Assembly: GCF_010994755.1 (NCBI RefSeq)
Contig: NZ_WHSB02000004.1
Span: forward strand, 434,001 to 498,000
Direction of reading: 5' to 3'
DNA: 64,000 nucleotides
From: Shinella lacus
Lineage (GTDB): Bacteria; Pseudomonadota; Alphaproteobacteria; Rhizobiales; Rhizobiaceae
Shown here in pieces: positions 21,907 through 29,501 of this stretch; within the stretch, counting starts at the first letter, position 1; each line of letters starts with the position of its first letter. The notes beneath the pieces are model-generated. The model saw nothing but the letters and a program-made list of their open reading frames with translations, was not told where the DNA came from and searched no databases. Position numbers and translations under genes: made by a program.

Positions 21907-23058
21907 TCACCGTGCCAGCACGTCGCGCATTTCGACGAGGTTGGAACGCACGCGCAGGATATAGAAACCCATCGTCGCCAGATGCGTCGGCATGATCCAG
22001 CCATCCTCGCGGCCGTTCGAGATGATGGCCGGCTGGATGCTGAGCGCGGAGCGCAACTGCTTGATGCTTTCCGCCCAGATCGGCTCGATGCCGCGCGCCT
22101 TGATGACCGCGTCGAAATCCGCGCCGGCCGCAGACAAGATGCCGTAATAGCCATAGAGCTGGCCATAGGCGAACCAGAAGCGATCGTCGGCGCGCGTATC
22201 GAACCAGCCGCCATTGTGGAATTCCGAGCGCTCGCGAATGATCGCGGAGGTCGAGCCGATGTCGTTGGCGATGCGGTCGAGGAACTCGATCAGGTTGTCC
22301 GAGCGGCCGTCAAAGATCGCCTCGCAGGATTCGAGCGAAGTGTTGAACTTGCGCAGGTCCGCCATCGCCGTACGGTAATAGTTCGGCGTCGGCGTCTTCG
22401 GCAAAAGCGAATCCGAGCCGAAATACCAGGTCTCCTCATCGAACTGGATATTGCCGCGGGCGCGCTGGAGATCGGCGTTGATGCCCGACGTGCCGCGCAC
22501 GCGGCCGAGGGAATCGACGAGCTCGACGGAGGTGCGGCGCACCGCCTGGTTGATGCCGCGCTGGAACGACGCCTTGTTGTCGAACCACGGCGTCTTGTCC
22601 CAGTCGAGCCCGAACAGCCCGAGCTTGTAGAGCAGCATCGAGGAGATCCAGGCATTCTGGTTGACATTGTAGTCGATCAGGTCCGCCGTGACGTCGACGA
22701 TTGCCGAACGCACGCAGGTCTTCGGCTCCGGCTCCGCCACCTCGCCTGCTGCCGGCGTGGTTGCGGCCGCACCCGTCGAGGCGACGCCGGCATCCTGCTT
22801 GCGCTGGGCGAGATTGTAATTGTTCACATAATCCGGGTTGAAGCCGCTCCACACCTGGGCCTGCCAGATGAAATAGGCATAGAGGCCGAAGAGGACCAGC
22901 AGGCCGATGCCGATCGGCCCCTTGATGATCCAGCCGCGCGCCCGATACCAGTTCGCCGCCGCCATGAACGGCCAGAGGATCCAGGCGATCACCAGGCCGA
23001 TGCCCCGGCCGATGGCCGCGAAGATGCGCTGGAAAAACGCCACGATCGGGTCAAGCAT
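21907..23058 (-). CDS. DUF2333-like membrane-anchored protein
   Basis: 383 residues. A basic amphipathic N-terminus (FFQRIFAAIGRGIGLVIAWI) is followed by a clear membrane helix at about residues 47-66 (GPIGIGLLVLFGLYAYFIW). The remaining roughly 315 residues face the periplasm and are rich in helices and aromatic residues (NVNQNAWISSMLLYKLGLFG, GWFDTRADDRFWFAYGQLYG). I assign DUF2333 from overall pattern, not from a search. The start overlaps the stop of the upstream 433-aa protein gene by 8 bp, so both are translated together. It is the last gene of the AAA+ cluster and the only clear membrane component, which suggests the machine works at the inner membrane. Function unknown. Confidence 0.75.
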   Translation of the reverse strand: MLDPIVAFFQRIFAAIGRGIGLVIAWILWPFMAAANWYRARGWIIKGPIGIGLLVLFGLYAYFIWQAQVWSGFNPDYVNNYNLAQRKQDAGVASTGAAATTPAAGEVAEPEPKTCVRSAIVDVTADLIDYNVNQNAWISSMLLYKLGLFGLDWDKTPWFDNKASFQRGINQAVRRTSVELVDSLGRVRGTSGINADLQRARGNIQFDEETWYFGSDSLLPKTPTPNYYRTAMADLRKFNTSLESCEAIFDGRSDNLIEFLDRIANDIGSTSAIIRERSEFHNGGWFDTRADDRFWFAYGQLYGYYGILSAAGADFDAVIKARGIEPIWAESIKQLRSALSIQPAIISNGREDGWIMPTHLATMGFYILRVRSNLVEMRDVLAR

Positions 23059-24352
23059 TGGTATCGTCCTCTCTGATGCCGTACAGCTTTCGGCGGAAGC
23101 CAGCCTTGTCTTGCAGATAGGTCCGCGTCAACGTCGCAACAACGTACTCGCGGAACTTTTCGCTATATTGCTCGTAGGCCGCGTAGAAACCCTGCTTGTC
23201 GAAGACGAAGCGTGACACAAAATCATAAGGAACCATCTGTGAAATCAGGCGGTTGACCAGCCACTGGTCGGGATGTTCGGGGGCTGCGCGCACCACGAGG
23301 AAACGCCGTTCCGGCGGCACCTCGTTGATCTTGATCTCGCCGGTCGCCGCCACCGTGCGGATCGCCTCCTGCAGGAACGGATAGGTGCCGTCGCGCGCCA
23401 CAAGCTCCGAATTGCGGTGCATCCAGGTCTGCAGCCAGATCCTGTCGGCCTTTTCAAGATCGCTCGTCGGATCGCCCTGGTTGACGAGATTGACGACCGT
23501 CATGTCCGCGCGATGCTGGAACAGGCCGGACTGCTCGACCCAGGAGGCGCGCGGCAGTTCCAGCCGTTTGGTCGAGGAGAGGAACTCGAAGATGCGCTTG
23601 TGGTCGTTCAGCGCGATGTAGCTCACCTGCCAGGGCCGCGAGCGACGAAAGCCCGGTACGGCCGGATCACAGATCACCGTCGTCGTCTTGTCGTCGAGGA
23701 AGACATAGACGCCACCGAAATGGTTCGCCCAATAGGCCTCGTGGCGGAAGACGAGCTGGTCGGGCACCAGCGCATTCTGGCGGATGTCTCCGGTCTGCTT
23801 GGCAAGCTCCACCATGCGGTTGAGCATGGCATCGTCCGACCAGGCATTCGGCACGGTCTTCAGCCGATCGACCAGCCCGCGCAATTCGCCTGCCTTGCCG
23901 AGCATGTCCTCGGCCGACAGCACCTTGAAGCGCACCTCGTTGATCGACAGCAGGTCGTCGATATCGTTGACCACCGAGACCGAATCCTCGATCTCGCCAT
24001 AGAGCGCATCGCGGATGGTGATCGCGTTGATCGCCCGGGCATTGGCCGAAAAGAACTCATGCATCAGGGCCGCGGTGTTCGAAAAGCTCGTATGCACCAC
24101 CGGCAGGTTCACCTGCTCCGGCGTCATGATGACGAAGCGACGGTTGACGCGGTTCGGATCGAGATAATCCCGATCGCCGAGTTCATCGGCGATCTCCGGC
24201 GAAAACCCCGTCATGTCGATGCGAAAACTCGAAAGCGCCGTGCGCCGCATGCCGAACCCGTCCAGCGCCTTGTTGTAGCGCTCGACCAGATGCGGCTCGT
24301 CGACCGGCAACAGCCGCCCGTAGATCAATTCGGCTTCGAGGAGGCGTTTCAT
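23051..24352 (-). CDS. Conserved protein of the AAA+ cluster (433 aa, possibly DUF6638)
   Basis: 433 residues, soluble, with no signal peptide or membrane segment. It is a mixture of helices and strands with no motif I recognise. Segments such as RRFVIMTPEQVNLPVVHTSF, NHFGGVYVFLDDKTTTVICD and RPWQVSYIALNDHKRIFEFL look like a globular enzyme or adaptor fold. Acidic and Asn-rich spots (DLLSINEVRF) suggest protein contacts. It starts 10 bp after the XRE antitoxin stop and overlaps the DUF2333-like gene by 8 bp. The DUF name is tentative. Confidence 0.65.
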   Translation of the reverse strand: MKRLLEAELIYGRLLPVDEPHLVERYNKALDGFGMRRTALSSFRIDMTGFSPEIADELGDRDYLDPNRVNRRFVIMTPEQVNLPVVHTSFSNTAALMHEFFSANARAINAITIRDALYGEIEDSVSVVNDIDDLLSINEVRFKVLSAEDMLGKAGELRGLVDRLKTVPNAWSDDAMLNRMVELAKQTGDIRQNALVPDQLVFRHEAYWANHFGGVYVFLDDKTTTVICDPAVPGFRRSRPWQVSYIALNDHKRIFEFLSSTKRLELPRASWVEQSGLFQHRADMTVVNLVNQGDPTSDLEKADRIWLQTWMHRNSELVARDGTYPFLQEAIRTVAATGEIKINEVPPERRFLVVRAAPEHPDQWLVNRLISQMVPYDFVSRFVFDKQGFYAAYEQYSEKFREYVVATLTRTYLQDKAGFRRKLYGIREDDTNA

Positions 24353-24362
24353 GCGTCTTGGA

Positions 24363-24770
24363 TCACTCGCTTACCGGCCGTTTGCTGTCCTCGCCCCAGA
24401 AGAGATCGTCGAGATCGACACGAAGCGCCTTGGCGATGCTCCTGAAAACCGAAATGCTGCCTTCCTTCTTGCCGGTCTCGATCTCGGAAAGATAGCCCGC
24501 ACTTATTCCGATCGCCTTTGCCAGGTCCTTGCTCGTCATGCCACGGAAATCGCGCCAGACACGGATCGGGTTTTCTCCATCGATCAGCCGGTCGACGAAT
24601 TCGGAAGGAACCAGTAGATCATCGCCCTCTGCGATGCGCCGTTTCGCTTCATCGTATGCGGCCACGTCCTCAAGCATTTCCGCCATTTCGACGAGCGCAT
24701 CATATTCGGCGCGCGCAAGCACGACCATCTCCTCACCGCTCGGCGTGGTAAACTTGGTTACCTTGTTCAT
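24363..24770 (-). CDS. XRE-type antitoxin
   Basis: 135 residues from the ATG at 24770, preceded by GGGAG at the right distance. The N-terminal half (FTTPSGEEMVVLARAEYDAL) looks like a toxin-binding strand-helix region. The C-terminal half (about 70-125) is an HTH-XRE domain (WRDFRGMTSKDLAKAIGISA, GYLSEIETGKKEGSISVFRS). It pairs with the RelE-like toxin gene located 12 bp upstream, and the order toxin then antitoxin is that of HigBA-type modules. It should neutralise the toxin and repress its own promoter. Confidence 0.85.
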   Translation of the reverse strand: MNKVTKFTTPSGEEMVVLARAEYDALVEMAEMLEDVAAYDEAKRRIAEGDDLLVPSEFVDRLIDGENPIRVWRDFRGMTSKDLAKAIGISAGYLSEIETGKKEGSISVFRSIAKALRVDLDDLFWGEDSKRPVSE

Positions 24771-24782
24771 CACACGCTCCCT

Positions 24783-25031
24783 TCAGTAAATGCTTCCGCG
24801 ACTATCAACTTCAAGTACGTCAAGAACGTCGCCATTCTCGTCGAAAATCACACGCCAGTTTCCAACCCGCAATCTGAAGCCCGTCCGTCCCTGGAGCTTC
24901 TTCACATTCGCCTTCAGCGCCTCCGGATCAGCAGCATACTGATAAATCTTCGCTCTGATCCTGTCGGCCTCGTTTCGCGGTATGCGCGCGAGCGTCCGCA
25001 AGGCAGGGGCATGGAAAACAACCTGTTTCAT
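24783..25031 (-). CDS. RelE-family toxin
   Basis: 82 residues from the ATG at 25031 (MKQVVFHAPALRTL); a GTG two codons upstream is possible. The sequence fits the RelE/ParE fold: helix RTLARIPRNEADRIRAKIYQY, then LKANVKKLQGRTGFRLRVGN, then WRVIFDENGDVLDVLEVDSR. RelE-type toxins usually cut mRNA on the ribosome. It lies 60 bp after the AAA+ ATPase gene and 12 bp before its antitoxin, on the same strand as the cluster around it. Confidence 0.85.
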   Translation of the reverse strand: MKQVVFHAPALRTLARIPRNEADRIRAKIYQYAADPEALKANVKKLQGRTGFRLRVGNWRVIFDENGDVLDVLEVDSRGSIY

Positions 25032-25091
25032 AGACACTAAGCCCCGCCATCGGAACAGGCAATAGAATTCGCTGTCAGCTAATCCCCACCT

Positions 25092-27002
25092 CTACCACCG
25101 CCCCTCCGCCTTCATCGCCTCCATCTCGCGGATCGCCTTTTCGCGCTGGCGTTCGCGGCGGATGATGTCGGTGACGGCGGCATCGTCGGATTTGTCGGTG
25201 TAGCGGAATTCGGAATCGGCGTAACGGTTGATCTCCTGGAGCACCATTTCCATCGAGATGGGGCCGCGCAGTTCCTCGATCATCGCCTTCTTCTCGTCGT
25301 AGCCCTTGTGCATGAAGGCGTCGGCGGTGGTGAACCAGTCGTCCGGCAGTTCCACGTCCATGGCGCGCATCTTGATCGCGTCGGTGATGTTCTTGATGGC
25401 GCGGCCGGTGAAGCGCGGTTCGGCGATCTTGATGCGGTGCAGGTAGGCGCCGACATCGGCGAGCGACTTGACCGCGCCGTGCTCCTTCTCATGCGCCTCC
25501 CAGACGGCAAGCAGGCCGTCTTCCTGGGGTTTCGCATGCTGCTCGTAGGAGGTCGAGACGGCGCGCTTGATCTCCTGGCCTTCGAAGAGCTTGTGCTCGC
25601 CGAGCGGAATCGAATGGTTCTTGCCGACCAGCATCGCAAAAATGTCGATATAGTCGTCCTCGGTTTGCGGGCCGTCCACCAGCCAGCGGGCGCCGGCGCG
25701 CTGACGCAGAGCGTCATCAACGTTTTCCGGATAGTTGGAGAACATGCCGAAGGTGCAGTTGCCGCGAATGACCGTCGAGGCACCGGCAAAACTTTCCATC
25801 AGCACCGCCGTCACCTCGTGCTGGCCGGCAGACGCGCGATCGTCGGAGCGTTTGGCCGCGACCTGGTCGACGTCGTCGATCGTGCCGAAGCCGATTGCCT
25901 TGGGGTTGATGACGTTGTTGACGAATTCCTTGCAGTTCTGGCCGGATTTGCCCTGATAGGAGGAAATCTGGTCGACGCCGAAATTCTCGTAATGGAAGGC
26001 GTAACCGGCGGTCTGGCAGTAATCGTTGACGAGGCCGGCGAGCATCTGGATGAGGATCGTCTTGCCGGTGCCGGGCATGCCGTCGCCGATGAAGGTGAAG
26101 AGGAAGCCGCCGAGTTCGACGAAGGGATTGAGCTGCCGCTCGAAATCATAGGCGACCAGCATCTTTGCGAGCTTCATCGCCTGGTATTTGGCGATGTGGT
26201 TGCCGATGATCTCCTCGGGCTTCTTGAAAGTCATCGTCAGCGGCTTGCGCTTCTGGCCGGGCGCGACGTCGAAGCCGGAAAGCGTGAAATCGTCCTGCTC
26301 GATGCGGATATGCGCATTCTCGAACCCGGCAAGGCCGGTGAAGCGCGCGCGGCGGGAAATCAGGCCCTCGATGGCGACGCGCGAAAAGGCGCGCGCGCGG
26401 CTAACGAGTGCTGCATCGTCCGGCGCACCGGCGATCGTGTGCTCGAGGCCGGCGATCATGCTTTTCAGCGCATCCTGCGGCGTGTCGAACAGGTAGTCCG
26501 GCTCGCCGCCATCCTCCACCGGCTCGCCCTCACCCGGCAGCGTCGCGCCGAGATAGGCGGCGAAGGTGAAGGCGGCGATATAGGCGGAGGCGGCGAGCAA
26601 TGCCTTAAACTGGTTCGCCTCGTCGCCCGCCAGGGGCGAGGCAAGATTGCGCGATTGCAGGCCTTCAAGATTTGTCTGACGGGAGAAGGCGTCAGTGACG
26701 GCGAGCGCCACTTGCAAGCCGCGCCGCGAGCGGAACAGCACGGCATGCTGCTGCGGCGAGAGCAGCGGATCGGCGGCGCGCACGGACTGGATGGTCTTTG
26801 CCAGTTCCACCTCGCGGGTGCGCCGCGTGCCCGCCGTCGAAACGGTGGAGACGAAACGCCGGCCCGTGCCGGCGAGCGTCGTGCCGCTCTTGCCGTCCTC
26901 GCTTTCGAGGATGACGAGCTTGGTGACGAGGCTCTGCGCCGCCGCCTGATGTTTGGCGATGTCGTCTTCGTGGATCGTCGTCAGTCCGGCATTGAGGCTC
27001 AT
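25092..27002 (-). CDS. AAA+ ATPase of uncharacterised cluster
   Basis: 636 residues. An N-terminal region of about 250 residues, mostly helical, has no known domain. The ATPase core follows: Walker A GDGMPGTGKT (306-315, Lys314), Walker B IGFGTIDDVDQ (about 370-380, Asp376/377), sensor-1 Asn423 in MFSNYPENVDD, and Arg433/435 in ALRQRAGARW as candidate arginine fingers. A helical lid and C-terminal region follow. A large loop containing QISSYQGKSGQNCKEFVNN between Walker A and B may be a pore or substrate loop. It is flanked by the 382-aa protein (35 bp upstream) and the toxin-antitoxin pair. It probably remodels a partner in the same cluster. Confidence 0.85.
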   Translation of the reverse strand: MSLNAGLTTIHEDDIAKHQAAAQSLVTKLVILESEDGKSGTTLAGTGRRFVSTVSTAGTRRTREVELAKTIQSVRAADPLLSPQQHAVLFRSRRGLQVALAVTDAFSRQTNLEGLQSRNLASPLAGDEANQFKALLAASAYIAAFTFAAYLGATLPGEGEPVEDGGEPDYLFDTPQDALKSMIAGLEHTIAGAPDDAALVSRARAFSRVAIEGLISRRARFTGLAGFENAHIRIEQDDFTLSGFDVAPGQKRKPLTMTFKKPEEIIGNHIAKYQAMKLAKMLVAYDFERQLNPFVELGGFLFTFIGDGMPGTGKTILIQMLAGLVNDYCQTAGYAFHYENFGVDQISSYQGKSGQNCKEFVNNVINPKAIGFGTIDDVDQVAAKRSDDRASAGQHEVTAVLMESFAGASTVIRGNCTFGMFSNYPENVDDALRQRAGARWLVDGPQTEDDYIDIFAMLVGKNHSIPLGEHKLFEGQEIKRAVSTSYEQHAKPQEDGLLAVWEAHEKEHGAVKSLADVGAYLHRIKIAEPRFTGRAIKNITDAIKMRAMDVELPDDWFTTADAFMHKGYDEKKAMIEELRGPISMEMVLQEINRYADSEFRYTDKSDDAAVTDIIRRERQREKAIREMEAMKAEGRW

Positions 27003-27037
27003 GGCGGAGTCCTTTTGAAAATTCGGCGGGAAGGGCT

Positions 27038-28186
27038 CTACCCCTCGCTGATCACCTGGTTTCCGGAAATAACATGCACCTTGTAGGCGCCGAAGATGCC
27101 GGCGGTCTCGCCTGCGGCGTAAAGCGCCTGGTAGGCATCGTGCGGCACAAGCGCATGTTTTTCGTATGTGCTGACGCCCATGCGGGCGGCTTCGAGATCA
27201 TTGGTCTCGATGTGGAATTCCTCCTGCGCCGGGGTGGAGCTCCAGAAACCCTTCTGCGCGGGGCGCTCGGCCTTGGAAAACACCTCCTGCACCGTCCAGG
27301 TCAGCAGCCAGGCGTTTTCCGGCTTGCGCACCTTGGAGAGGATCTCGTTGACCCGCGCATTGTTCTCGGTGATGCCGGCCGAATAGAACGGGCCGAGCAC
27401 GATGCGGCGCAGTTGCTTGGGGTGCAGCGTCGGGAAATCCTTGTCTAGATTGGTGGCGATCGTCGCGGGCGTCAGCGAATAGGCGCTGTTCTTCAGCGTG
27501 AAATCGTCGAAGCGGCTGGCAAGCTCCGGATTGAGCAGGCCGCCGACGGGCAGCGGGATGTCGACGTCCGGGTTGAGCTTGCCGTCCTGCCCCACCAGCA
27601 TCTTCACGACGTTCTCGCTCGAATCCTCGATGGTCGCCATGTAGACCATCGGCAATGTCGCAGTGCCGTCGAAGGCGCCCCAGCAGACGATGTAATAGGG
27701 CCGCATGGTCTTGGGGTTGACCGCGACGCGGATCGTCTCCGGCAGCACGAAGGGCGAAAAGATGTCGCCCTTGCCGATCTGTTCCAGATAGAGCCGCTCG
27801 GCCATGCGCCCCTGAAGATCGGTCGGGAAAGCCTTCTGGCGCAGGATGAAATCCGCCATCTCGCCGCGCAGCTGGTCGGCATTCGGAATGGCGGCGAGCC
27901 GCTTTTCTGCCGTCTGTCGGTCGTTTTCCAGTTCCAGCACGTTCTGGAACACCGGAAAGCCGCTTTCGGCGCGCGAGACGCGGAACTGGTCGATGAAGCC
28001 GATGCGGTTCTCCCAGCAGGCGAAGGACGCCTTCAGCCGGGCGAGATAAGGCACGACGATCTCGCCGACCACGGAGTTGCGGTAGAGCGGCGAGTTGCGG
28101 TCGGCCAGGAAGATTTCGAGGCCACCGAGGGCGGAGCGGATGGTGGAGAAATACTGCGCGACGGCGCTGTCGGCGGGGGCGTTCAT
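27038..28186 (-). CDS. Unknown protein of the AAA+ cluster (382 aa)
   Basis: 382 residues, soluble, with no recognised domain. The N-terminal third is helical (YFSTIRSALGGLEIFLADRN, NVLELENDRQTAEKRLAAIP). The middle is beta-rich (RVAVNPKTMRPYYIVCWGAF, TLPMVYMATIEDSSENVVKM), and a further alpha/beta part ends AYKVHVISGNQVISEG. Its stop is 35 bp before the AAA+ ATPase start, so the two are almost surely co-transcribed. The upstream gene is separated by 226 bp carrying a repeat element. It could be an adaptor or substrate of the ATPase. Confidence 0.6.
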   Translation of the reverse strand: MNAPADSAVAQYFSTIRSALGGLEIFLADRNSPLYRNSVVGEIVVPYLARLKASFACWENRIGFIDQFRVSRAESGFPVFQNVLELENDRQTAEKRLAAIPNADQLRGEMADFILRQKAFPTDLQGRMAERLYLEQIGKGDIFSPFVLPETIRVAVNPKTMRPYYIVCWGAFDGTATLPMVYMATIEDSSENVVKMLVGQDGKLNPDVDIPLPVGGLLNPELASRFDDFTLKNSAYSLTPATIATNLDKDFPTLHPKQLRRIVLGPFYSAGITENNARVNEILSKVRKPENAWLLTWTVQEVFSKAERPAQKGFWSSTPAQEEFHIETNDLEAARMGVSTYEKHALVPHDAYQALYAAGETAGIFGAYKVHVISGNQVISEG

Positions 28187-28214
28187 TGGGGGTGTACCCC
28201 TTCAGAGGAGAATA

Positions 28215-28368
28215 CCCCCCTCTGCCCTGCCGGGCATCTCCCCCACAAGGGGGGAGATTGAAAGAGGCCAGGTTTTCGCCAATCCCGAACGCCGAAATAT
28301 GAGGAGTGCCATTGCACCTTGCCGATCTCCCCCCTTGAGGGGGAGATGCCCGGCAGGGCAGAGGGGGG
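28215..28368. repeat. Mosaic inverted-repeat element (RIME-like)
   Basis: Two 44-bp arms (28215-28258 and 28325-28368) are inverted copies differing at one base, with a 66-bp unique centre. Each arm holds its own smaller hairpins (CCCTGCCGGG; CTCCCCC/GGGGGAG). The wording fits the intergenic mosaic elements described in rhizobia. It lies between the helical-protein gene and the 382-aa gene of the cluster. Confidence 0.75.
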
Positions 28369-28412
28369 TGAAACGGCACCCGATAGCAAACCCGGCGTCG
28401 GCATGCGAACCA

Positions 28413-29501
28413 TCACTGCTTCACGTAATTCGCAGTGTTGTGCTTGTCCATCACCGCCTGGAACCGCCGCGCAAAAGCATCGTCCGCGAGCTTCTTGCGG
28501 CGCTGGATATCCTGCGTCGACAGCATGTTCTTCTCGTGCATTTCGAGAAGGTCGCCGATATGGCGCTGGGCGGCCGAGCCGATGCCGGCCATGGTCTCTT
28601 CCGCCGCGGTATCGACCTGCGAACCGAGCGTGTTGATCTTGTGCGCCACGTCCTGCTGGGCGGCCGTCTTCAACGAATCTTCCAGCGCCTTGTAGAGCAC
28701 GATGCGCTGCTCGGTATCGATCGTCAGCTTGTTGATCAGCGTGTTCTGCGCGGCGATTTGGTTGTTGAGCGAATCGACGAAGGTCTGGAACATCGAGGTG
28801 TAGCGTTCCAGCGTCTGGCTTTCGGCCAAAAGCTCCTGCTCCTTCGCCTGCATCATGTTGTATTCGGTCGCCAGCGCCGAGCGTTCGCCTTCGAGTTCCG
28901 TGCGGCTCTTCTGGTCGGTCGAGGCGGCGATGCGGTTTTCGAGGTCCATGAGCAGTGGGTTCAGCTCCTCGATACGCTTCTGGGTCGCTTCGAGGTTAAC
29001 CATCGTGCCCTTGCGGCGCTCGATCACCTGCACGAGGCTCGCTTCCGAGGTCTTGTAGCGCTGGTCGAGGATCGACTTCTGCTCTTTCAAAATGCCGACG
29101 ATCGTGTCGGACTTGGAGAGCAATTCCTGAAGGTTGCCGGCGAGCGACATATTGCGCACGCGGTCGGTGCGCATGCGCTGCATCTTCTGCTTGGAGAAGA
29201 TGCCGATGAACTTTTCATAGCCCGTATAGCTCTTCATGCTCTCGAATTCGGTGCCGAAGATGTTGGTCGCATCCTCCAGCCCGATGATGAGATCGGCAAT
29301 ATTGCCCTCCATCACCTTCTGCTGGTTGATGACATCCGAGATACGGGCGTTCTCTATGTCGAAATTGACGTCGCCGAGCTTGGTGTCGGCCTTGGCGAAC
29401 TGGTCGAGCACGACGCCCGACTGCTCCATCTTGCTGCGCATCTGGCTGACGACGCTGCGGGTCTTCTCGATTTCCGCATCGAAATTCTGAAGTGTGGCCA
29501 T
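28413..29501 (-). CDS. Long helical coiled-coil protein of the AAA+ cluster (TelA-like?)
   Basis: 362 residues, almost all helix with heptad patterns, few prolines and no membrane segment. Stretches such as RYKTSEASLVQVIERRKGTM, TQKRIEELNPLLMDLENRIA and EQELLAESQTLERYTSMFQT are long coiled coils. The helical body and its C-terminal part (IVLYKALEDSLKTAAQQDVA, ending in basic RRKKLADDAFARRF) recall the TelA/KlaA toxic-anion-resistance fold and, more loosely, PspA-type helical proteins. Both are suggestions from pattern only. It is the first gene of the cluster, with GGGGACA before the ATG. Confidence 0.65.
   Translation of the reverse strand: MATLQNFDAEIEKTRSVVSQMRSKMEQSGVVLDQFAKADTKLGDVNFDIENARISDVINQQKVMEGNIADLIIGLEDATNIFGTEFESMKSYTGYEKFIGIFSKQKMQRMRTDRVRNMSLAGNLQELLSKSDTIVGILKEQKSILDQRYKTSEASLVQVIERRKGTMVNLEATQKRIEELNPLLMDLENRIAASTDQKSRTELEGERSALATEYNMMQAKEQELLAESQTLERYTSMFQTFVDSLNNQIAAQNTLINKLTIDTEQRIVLYKALEDSLKTAAQQDVAHKINTLGSQVDTAAEETMAGIGSAAQRHIGDLLEMHEKNMLSTQDIQRRKKLADDAFARRFQAVMDKHNTANYVKQ

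Follow-up and report, generated by a model that had tools for sequence, protein, structure and literature searches.

What do five genes of little or no assigned function, lying on the minus strand at 21907-29501 of the window (the whole 64,000-nucleotide stretch of Shinella lacus DNA analysed here), encode? The initial annotation had taken them for one envelope-associated ATPase machine, composed of a long helical protein, an AAA+ ATPase, two unknown proteins and a membrane protein resembling DUF2333, perhaps serving membrane stress or remodelling. Sequence comparison with related loci suggests that the group is better read as a four-gene core, A-B-C-D, plus an exchangeable fifth gene, which is E in the window. 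The core is constant in composition and order in the loci examined, and the sequence of A has diverged strongly in genomes that have lost B, C and D but kept a normal E. The genes of the locus are:

28413-29501, minus strand: gene A, 362 amino acids, predicted all-helical with a coiled-coil hairpin, without Pfam family
27038-28186, minus strand: gene B, 382 amino acids, predicted alpha/beta protein without hydrophobic segment and without Pfam family
25092-27002, minus strand: gene C, 636 amino acids, AAA+ ATPase of the classical type (PF00004)
24783-25037, minus strand: ParE-like toxin of an inserted type II pair (PF05016, E 2.8e-6)
24363-24773, minus strand: helix-turn-helix (HTH) antitoxin of the inserted pair (PF01381, E 6.5e-12)
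23051-24352, minus strand: gene D, 433 amino acids, DUF6638 (PF20343), without hydrophobic segment
21907-23058, minus strand: gene E, 383 amino acids, DUF2333 (PF10095), with a hydrophobic N-terminal part and a large domain

All five open frames were recovered where the initial annotation had placed them, as were the 35-bp spacing between B and C and the 8-bp overlap shared by D and E. The five genes are present as a cluster but are not contiguous, since the ParE-like/HTH pair at 24363-25037 separates C from D. The cluster is flanked downstream by a formate-tetrahydrofolate ligase (FTHFS) gene; on its upstream side lie an OpuAC-type transporter gene and a small open frame for a cytochrome c.

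When the genome collection was searched with C, 291 relatives were obtained and the best 80 of them kept; most belong, by title, to Shinella, Rhizobium, Sinorhizobium/Ensifer, Ciceribacter and further Rhizobiales, and the closest named matches among them are Shinella records with 97% identity to C. The order A-B-C-D-E, with a variable spacing between C and D, was found in 79 of these 80 loci, and the exception (L060) ends early on a 3.9-kb contig. A distant set of 32 loci was composed of 30 of the 48 other C-bearing genomes from the class, order and phylum samples (three of the 30 are Rhizobiaceae) and of one plasmid record each from Vibrio vulnificus and Rhizobium leguminosarum. Profile searches placed A, B, C and D in this order and on the same strand in 32/32 of these loci, Vibrio included, so that the co-occurrence extends well beyond close relatives; the outcome that would have refuted the initial annotation, a cluster confined to close relatives, did not arise. 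Between the Rhizobiaceae and Vibrio, the window proteins A and C share ca. 37-38% and 40% identity, respectively, over nearly their full length, while comparison of the Vibrio with a Shinella record gave 28% over 75% of the protein for B and 34% over 49% for D. The conservation of the cluster does not reflect general synteny, because the FTHFS and transporter genes accompany it in only one of the 20 loci of a second set (L139, Rhizobiaceae).

Genome samples gave the same picture, and the co-occurrence of the cluster genes is far above chance. In the phylum sample of 299 genomes, all 20 genomes with C also possess A, and four others have a diverged A only. Of the 151 genomes in the family sample, 88 contain C, and in these both A and E are present in 88/88; the association of A with C has a Fisher p of 2e-36, a statistic that ignores the relatedness of the genomes. 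Five family genomes harbor A without C, four of them with the diverged A and the fifth (G846) being a 68% complete assembly. C occurs in 38/297 genomes of the order sample and in 3/190 of the class sample, the window's own genome included in each, and in the class of G533 it was found in G533 alone among 162 genomes. Among 72,556 plasmid records searched, A, B, C and D each match the same 10, which include chromosome-sized records and near-copies (four Vibrio, four Sinorhizobium).

In some loci part of the cluster is missing. Four Rhizobiaceae genomes from two genera (three and one, respectively) carry proteins A' and E' between the OpuAC and FTHFS genes, and searches of this site with the B, C and D profiles detected nothing. 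The identity of A' to A is 23-30%, as compared to 84-99% in the 79 cluster-bearing loci, whereas that of E' to E is 64-66%, inside the 60-95% range of the same loci; both ranges stem from near relatives, with matches of up to 200 residues excluded. The neighbouring FTHFS is 82-84% identical at the deletion loci. Among three of the deletion genomes, A' proteins are 55-74% and E' proteins 83-91% identical to each other.

To follow the divergence by residue we used alignments of A to E built from the window and 33 loci selected out of 100 (13 from the best 80 and 20/20 of the second set); in-frame stops excluded two C rows and one D row, and E is present in 23 of the 33 loci. Sixty residues are invariant in the 34 aligned A rows. 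The four A' proteins keep 18-27 of these 60, and only 2-4 of the 16 located in residues 275-346, whereas five control A proteins that are encoded beside B-C-D keep 46-60/60 and 14-16/16 at 38-57% identity; only these added controls are independent of the definition, and three of them (L184, L187 and L189) are similar to rows of the defining alignment. The lowest control, the Vibrio A protein, still keeps 46/60 and 14/16 at 38% identity. The best profile stretch of A' ends at residue 274 (170 in the fourth genome), and gapped pairwise alignments reach residues 343-357. The simplest reading of these numbers is that B, C and D would constrain the sequence of A but not that of E.

The place after D is where the cluster varies. 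Gene E of the window belongs to DUF2333 (PF10095, E 1.1e-17, 64.4 bits against a cut-off of 22, in two stretches), in agreement with the initial annotation; the single membrane helix proposed there becomes two hydrophobic stretches (12-30 and 49-69) by hydropathy. In the aligned rows, hydrophobic segments were called by a Kyte-Doolittle scan. Following D on the same strand, the next recognised gene in the 32 distant loci encodes a DUF2333 protein in 12 cases and a DUF1523 protein in 18; the remaining two, the Vibrio and R. leguminosarum plasmid records, have neither, and the two families never occur in one locus. The matched stretch of the fifth gene lies no more than 738 bp from D (422 bp for DUF1523), and in six loci a small gene of ca. 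88-100 amino acids lies in between, which in L187 has two hydrophobic stretches. All six proteins of the second kind that were tested match PF07509 (DUF1523). Every aligned row of either family (24 of DUF2333, 10 of DUF1523) has one or two hydrophobic segments. The proposal that DUF1523 and DUF2333 form one family was rejected (hhalign probability 1.0%). What was annotated as a unit of five genes is better read as a constant A-B-C-D and an exchangeable fifth member.

Some loci differ from this pattern in detail. On the R. leguminosarum TP16 plasmid pRlX5 (L254), genes A-B-C-D are 50-67% identical to those of the window and no E is found close by; three genomes of one Rhizobiaceae genus, in contrast, lack chromosomal B-C-D, and judging from these sequences the four genes A-D may move as a unit. 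In the Vibrio record (L252, 5169-6369) two small genes of 90 and 279 amino acids, without Pfam match or hydrophobic segment, are located upstream of A and could be further partners. The spacing between A and B is ca. 1 kb in L066, L067, L076, L077, L078, L081 and L087, and below 400 bp in other relatives. In Rhizobium sp. RCAM05350 (L042) several cluster genes and FTHFS have broken frames, perhaps from sequencing error rather than decay.

Gene C is a member of the AAA family (PF00004, E 4.7e-10, 40.5 bits against a cut-off of 21.2) with one AAA domain above the Pfam cut-off. The intact Walker A motif ascribed to it was confirmed: it spans residues 307-315, and Lys314 lies within GDGxPGTGKT, which is invariant in 32/32 aligned orthologues. 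The sensor residues are likewise intact, with the sensor-1 Asn423 and Arg433/435/439 invariant in the same 32 sequences. The Walker B motif, also described as intact, is non-canonical. It reads TIDDID, and Asp377 replaces the classical catalytic Glu in 32/32 orthologues, with only Ile/Val/Leu variants otherwise; the position aligns with the DE of AFG2. C thus shows the Pfam profile, Walker A Lys, sensor-1 Asn and Arg433/435 of classical AAA proteins and lacks their catalytic Glu, a substitution that, as judged from the motif, lowers the claim of a strong hydrolase and not that of an AAA fold. Conservation is concentrated in residues 261-460, where 91/200 positions are invariant; only 7 are invariant in residues 1-260, a region for which Pfam and the sequences of solved structures gave no credible match. 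No MIT domain was found in window C by Pfam at E up to 1. In the PDB, C is closest in sequence to AFG2, i-AAA and proteasomal ATPases. One hydrophobic segment was called in 8 of the 32 C rows.

The description of A as an almost all-helical protein agrees with its predicted structure (mean predicted local distance difference test score (pLDDT) 81.7), in which two long helices comprise residues 120-193 (74 residues) and 197-295 (99 residues). Pfam gave sub-threshold coiled-coil matches to A and no family, its profile found nothing credible among the sequences of solved structures, and comparison of the model with the PDB gave nothing at E 0.001 or better. The best-ranked structural matches are components of alpha-pore-forming toxins, SMC arms, chemoreceptors and syntaxin complexes, and PspA entries appear at Z ca. 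9 amid many unrelated helical chains. None of the 34 A rows has a hydrophobic segment. Kinship of A with TelA or PspA, whose folds it had been said to recall, found no support by profile, and the structural matches are typical of long helical bundles. Window A has no Pfam match to TelA (PF05816), nor to PspA_IM30 or Snf7 at E up to 1, and TelA, PspA and Snf7 are all absent from the 25 of 29 families listed for 23 aligned A relatives (E up to 0.1). The hhalign probability for TelA was 2.0% and 1.1%, against a TelA alignment of only seven sequences (7 of 13 places; L231, L236 and the weak rows L232-L235 were left out). The window's genome gave no TelA in a PF05816 search, and some cluster-bearing genomes (G257, G292 and G533) harbor a separate TelA gene.

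The same scan called one hydrophobic segment in 2 of 34 B rows and none in 33 D rows. B fits its description as an unknown protein, having no Pfam match. Its model is confident (mean pLDDT 90.9) and shows an alpha/beta protein for which no convincing solved match was found: the best PDB hit had E 0.24, the best Z was 5.1 (urate oxidase, root-mean-square deviation 3.9 over 125 residues), and the best hit among the viral models of BFVD had E 0.01 at probability 0.16. D, likewise annotated as unknown, has no assigned function but is a clear member of DUF6638 (PF20343, 273.6 bits against a cut-off of 27, E 3.9e-81). The B and D profiles gave nothing credible against the sequences of solved structures. 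That B and D are duplicates of one another was considered and rejected (hhalign 1.4%).

The reading that we favour, tentatively and with slightly less than even confidence, is that A-B-C-D form one conserved module in which a ring of C remodels A, B and D act as adaptors and the fifth-place protein provides a link to the inner membrane. C would assemble into an AAA+ ring that binds assemblies of A, mainly via the conserved second half of A, and loads, extracts or takes them apart. B and D would be soluble adaptors that cannot be dispensed with, presenting A to C or determining where and when it acts. The protein in fifth place, DUF2333 here and DUF1523 elsewhere, would bring the complex to the inner membrane and could report on the envelope. 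The proposal of an envelope-associated ATPase machine is thus retained as the favoured one, with A-B-C-D together in every complete C-bearing locus examined and a membrane-family gene after D in 30/32; a role in membrane stress or remodelling is a possible extension of it. A bolder form is doubtful in our estimation. It holds that the cluster would represent an undescribed AAA+ class, in which a slow ring with the Asp-Asp (DD) type of Walker B acts at the inner membrane on polymers of a coiled-coil protein and remodels them in an ESCRT-like but independently arisen manner, with two new adaptor families, B perhaps having a new fold, and a swapped membrane receptor.

Several observations weigh against the favoured module. 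The best structural matches of A are generic helical bundles, which makes polymer formation a guess. With Asp in the place of the Walker B Glu, C may hydrolyse ATP slowly or not at all, in which case it could serve as a switch or scaffold and not as a motor. A' is an open frame with 55-74% identity among three genomes, and may have acquired a new role instead of simply being freed from constraint. The deletion loci represent at most two events if each genus counts as one, and perhaps only one. The loci were selected for holding C, which shows linkage from the C side; the A side is covered by the A scans of the phylum and family samples. The two plasmid loci carry A-B-C-D without DUF2333 or DUF1523 nearby, so that a linked membrane gene is not obligatory, as far as the searched loci go. 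Finally, E is present in 27/63 family genomes without C and has a life of its own.

The last two observations lead to the alternative that survives best, which we consider somewhat unlikely: C would be a soluble unfoldase or assembly chaperone. A would then serve as a structural scaffold or be a client, B and D would be either adaptors or further clients, and the membrane gene would be a neighbour from another process. Apart from the two plasmid loci and the wide occurrence of E without C, this alternative is in line with the absence of hydrophobic segments from the A and D rows and their presence in 2 of 34 B and 8 of 32 C rows, and with the AFG2, i-AAA and proteasomal neighbours of C. It does not explain readily why two unrelated membrane families share the place after D, never both, in 30/32 loci, nor why E accompanies C in all 88 family genomes that have it. 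When 15 DUF2333 loci from other genomes were inspected, A-D were not found; this is a weak negative, as the open reading frame picker missed E itself in four of them. For Pseudomonas fluorescens, DUF2333 is listed in one paper beside an amidase and a NUDIX gene. The literature searched, which left out most subscription papers, has no mention of DUF6638 and gave no function of DUF2333 or DUF1523 in this context.

Improbable, to our judgement, is that C serves mainly as an ATP-dependent switch or ring scaffold around which the working complex of A, B and D is built. The presence of Asp377 in all 32 orthologues points in this direction, and the Asp-for-Glu exchange may resemble that in the D2 domain of NSF. 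The invariant Walker A, Asn423 and Arg433/435, in contrast, would hardly be needed by a mere scaffold, and an Asp in Walker B can support slow hydrolysis.

The toxin-antitoxin pair of the window is, by comparison with other loci, an insert outside the core: C-D inserts are of several kinds, and the spacing between C and D is below 150 bp in 46/100 loci, which places the pair outside the machine. BLAST clustering of the gap contents of these 100 loci gave ParE/RelE-like (28), HTH antitoxin (21), DUF559 endonuclease-like (15) and ribbon-helix-helix (12) frames, names that rest on one cluster member or on the window's own pair; many C-D gaps of relatives were found without a ParE-like/HTH pair. 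Small inserts are found in this gap preferentially. The C-D gap of S. meliloti Ak57 also holds an ISRm16 transposase gene. A phage-defence or other conflict system is very improbable: while the patchy presence in the order and in the class of G533 (0/161 others), the Vibrio and R. leguminosarum plasmid records, the toxin-antitoxin pairs within the gap and a weak match between C and TRIP13 (PADLOC-DB 2.0.0, E 6e-7) would suit it, the named Rhizobiaceae loci are, among those listed, mostly at one chromosomal place near the transporter and FTHFS genes, no C relatives were found in 50,697 phage records and none were confirmed in viral contigs by a short-pattern scan, A, B, D and E match no defence model at E up to 1, and the gene set matches no defence system described in PADLOC-DB beyond the weak TRIP13 match of C. 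The neighbourhoods were annotated in part, and an effector gene might lie close to the cluster.

The cluster is present in soil and symbiotic model organisms such as Sinorhizobium meliloti and is therefore open to ordinary genetics; understanding it would give a role to a number of uncharacterised families together. A ChvI-bound DNA fragment inside SMc02733 of S. meliloti is reported in one study (PMC3687685). By the order of locus tags from the choline transporter genes, SMc02733 might be gene C, an assignment that is not used as evidence here. If it were gene C, the cluster would be tied to the ExoS/ChvI system.

Among known systems, the classical AAA ATPases (AFG2, FtsH-type i-AAA, proteasomal) share with C the Walker A motif, the sensor-1 Asn, the Arg fingers and the AAA profile; C differs from them by Asp377 in the place of the catalytic Glu and by residues ca. 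1-260, which match nothing credible. TelA is presumably similar to A in being all-helical and of comparable length. It is found in some of the same genomes as the cluster, and A differs from it in having no PF05816 match. By profile, D belongs to DUF6638, E to DUF2333 and the alternative fifth gene to DUF1523, all of them Pfam families of unknown function. The nearest published idea is that of bacterial PspA/Snf7-AAA+ associations (PMC11237479), as described in the passages seen of that paper, which do not describe the gene set A-D and name no counterpart of B or D. Similar to these associations and to Vps4/ESCRT-III, the cluster combines in one operon a classical-type AAA+ gene with a long helical protein and a membrane link; unlike them, it has an A protein without PspA/Snf7 profile match and a DD Walker B motif. 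Machines in which an AAA+ ring has a coiled-coil partner of its own are rare and informative. In this cluster two further constant proteins accompany such a putative pair, a deletion that occurred in nature distinguishes features that depend on the ring genes from those that do not, and the membrane partner has been exchanged naturally.

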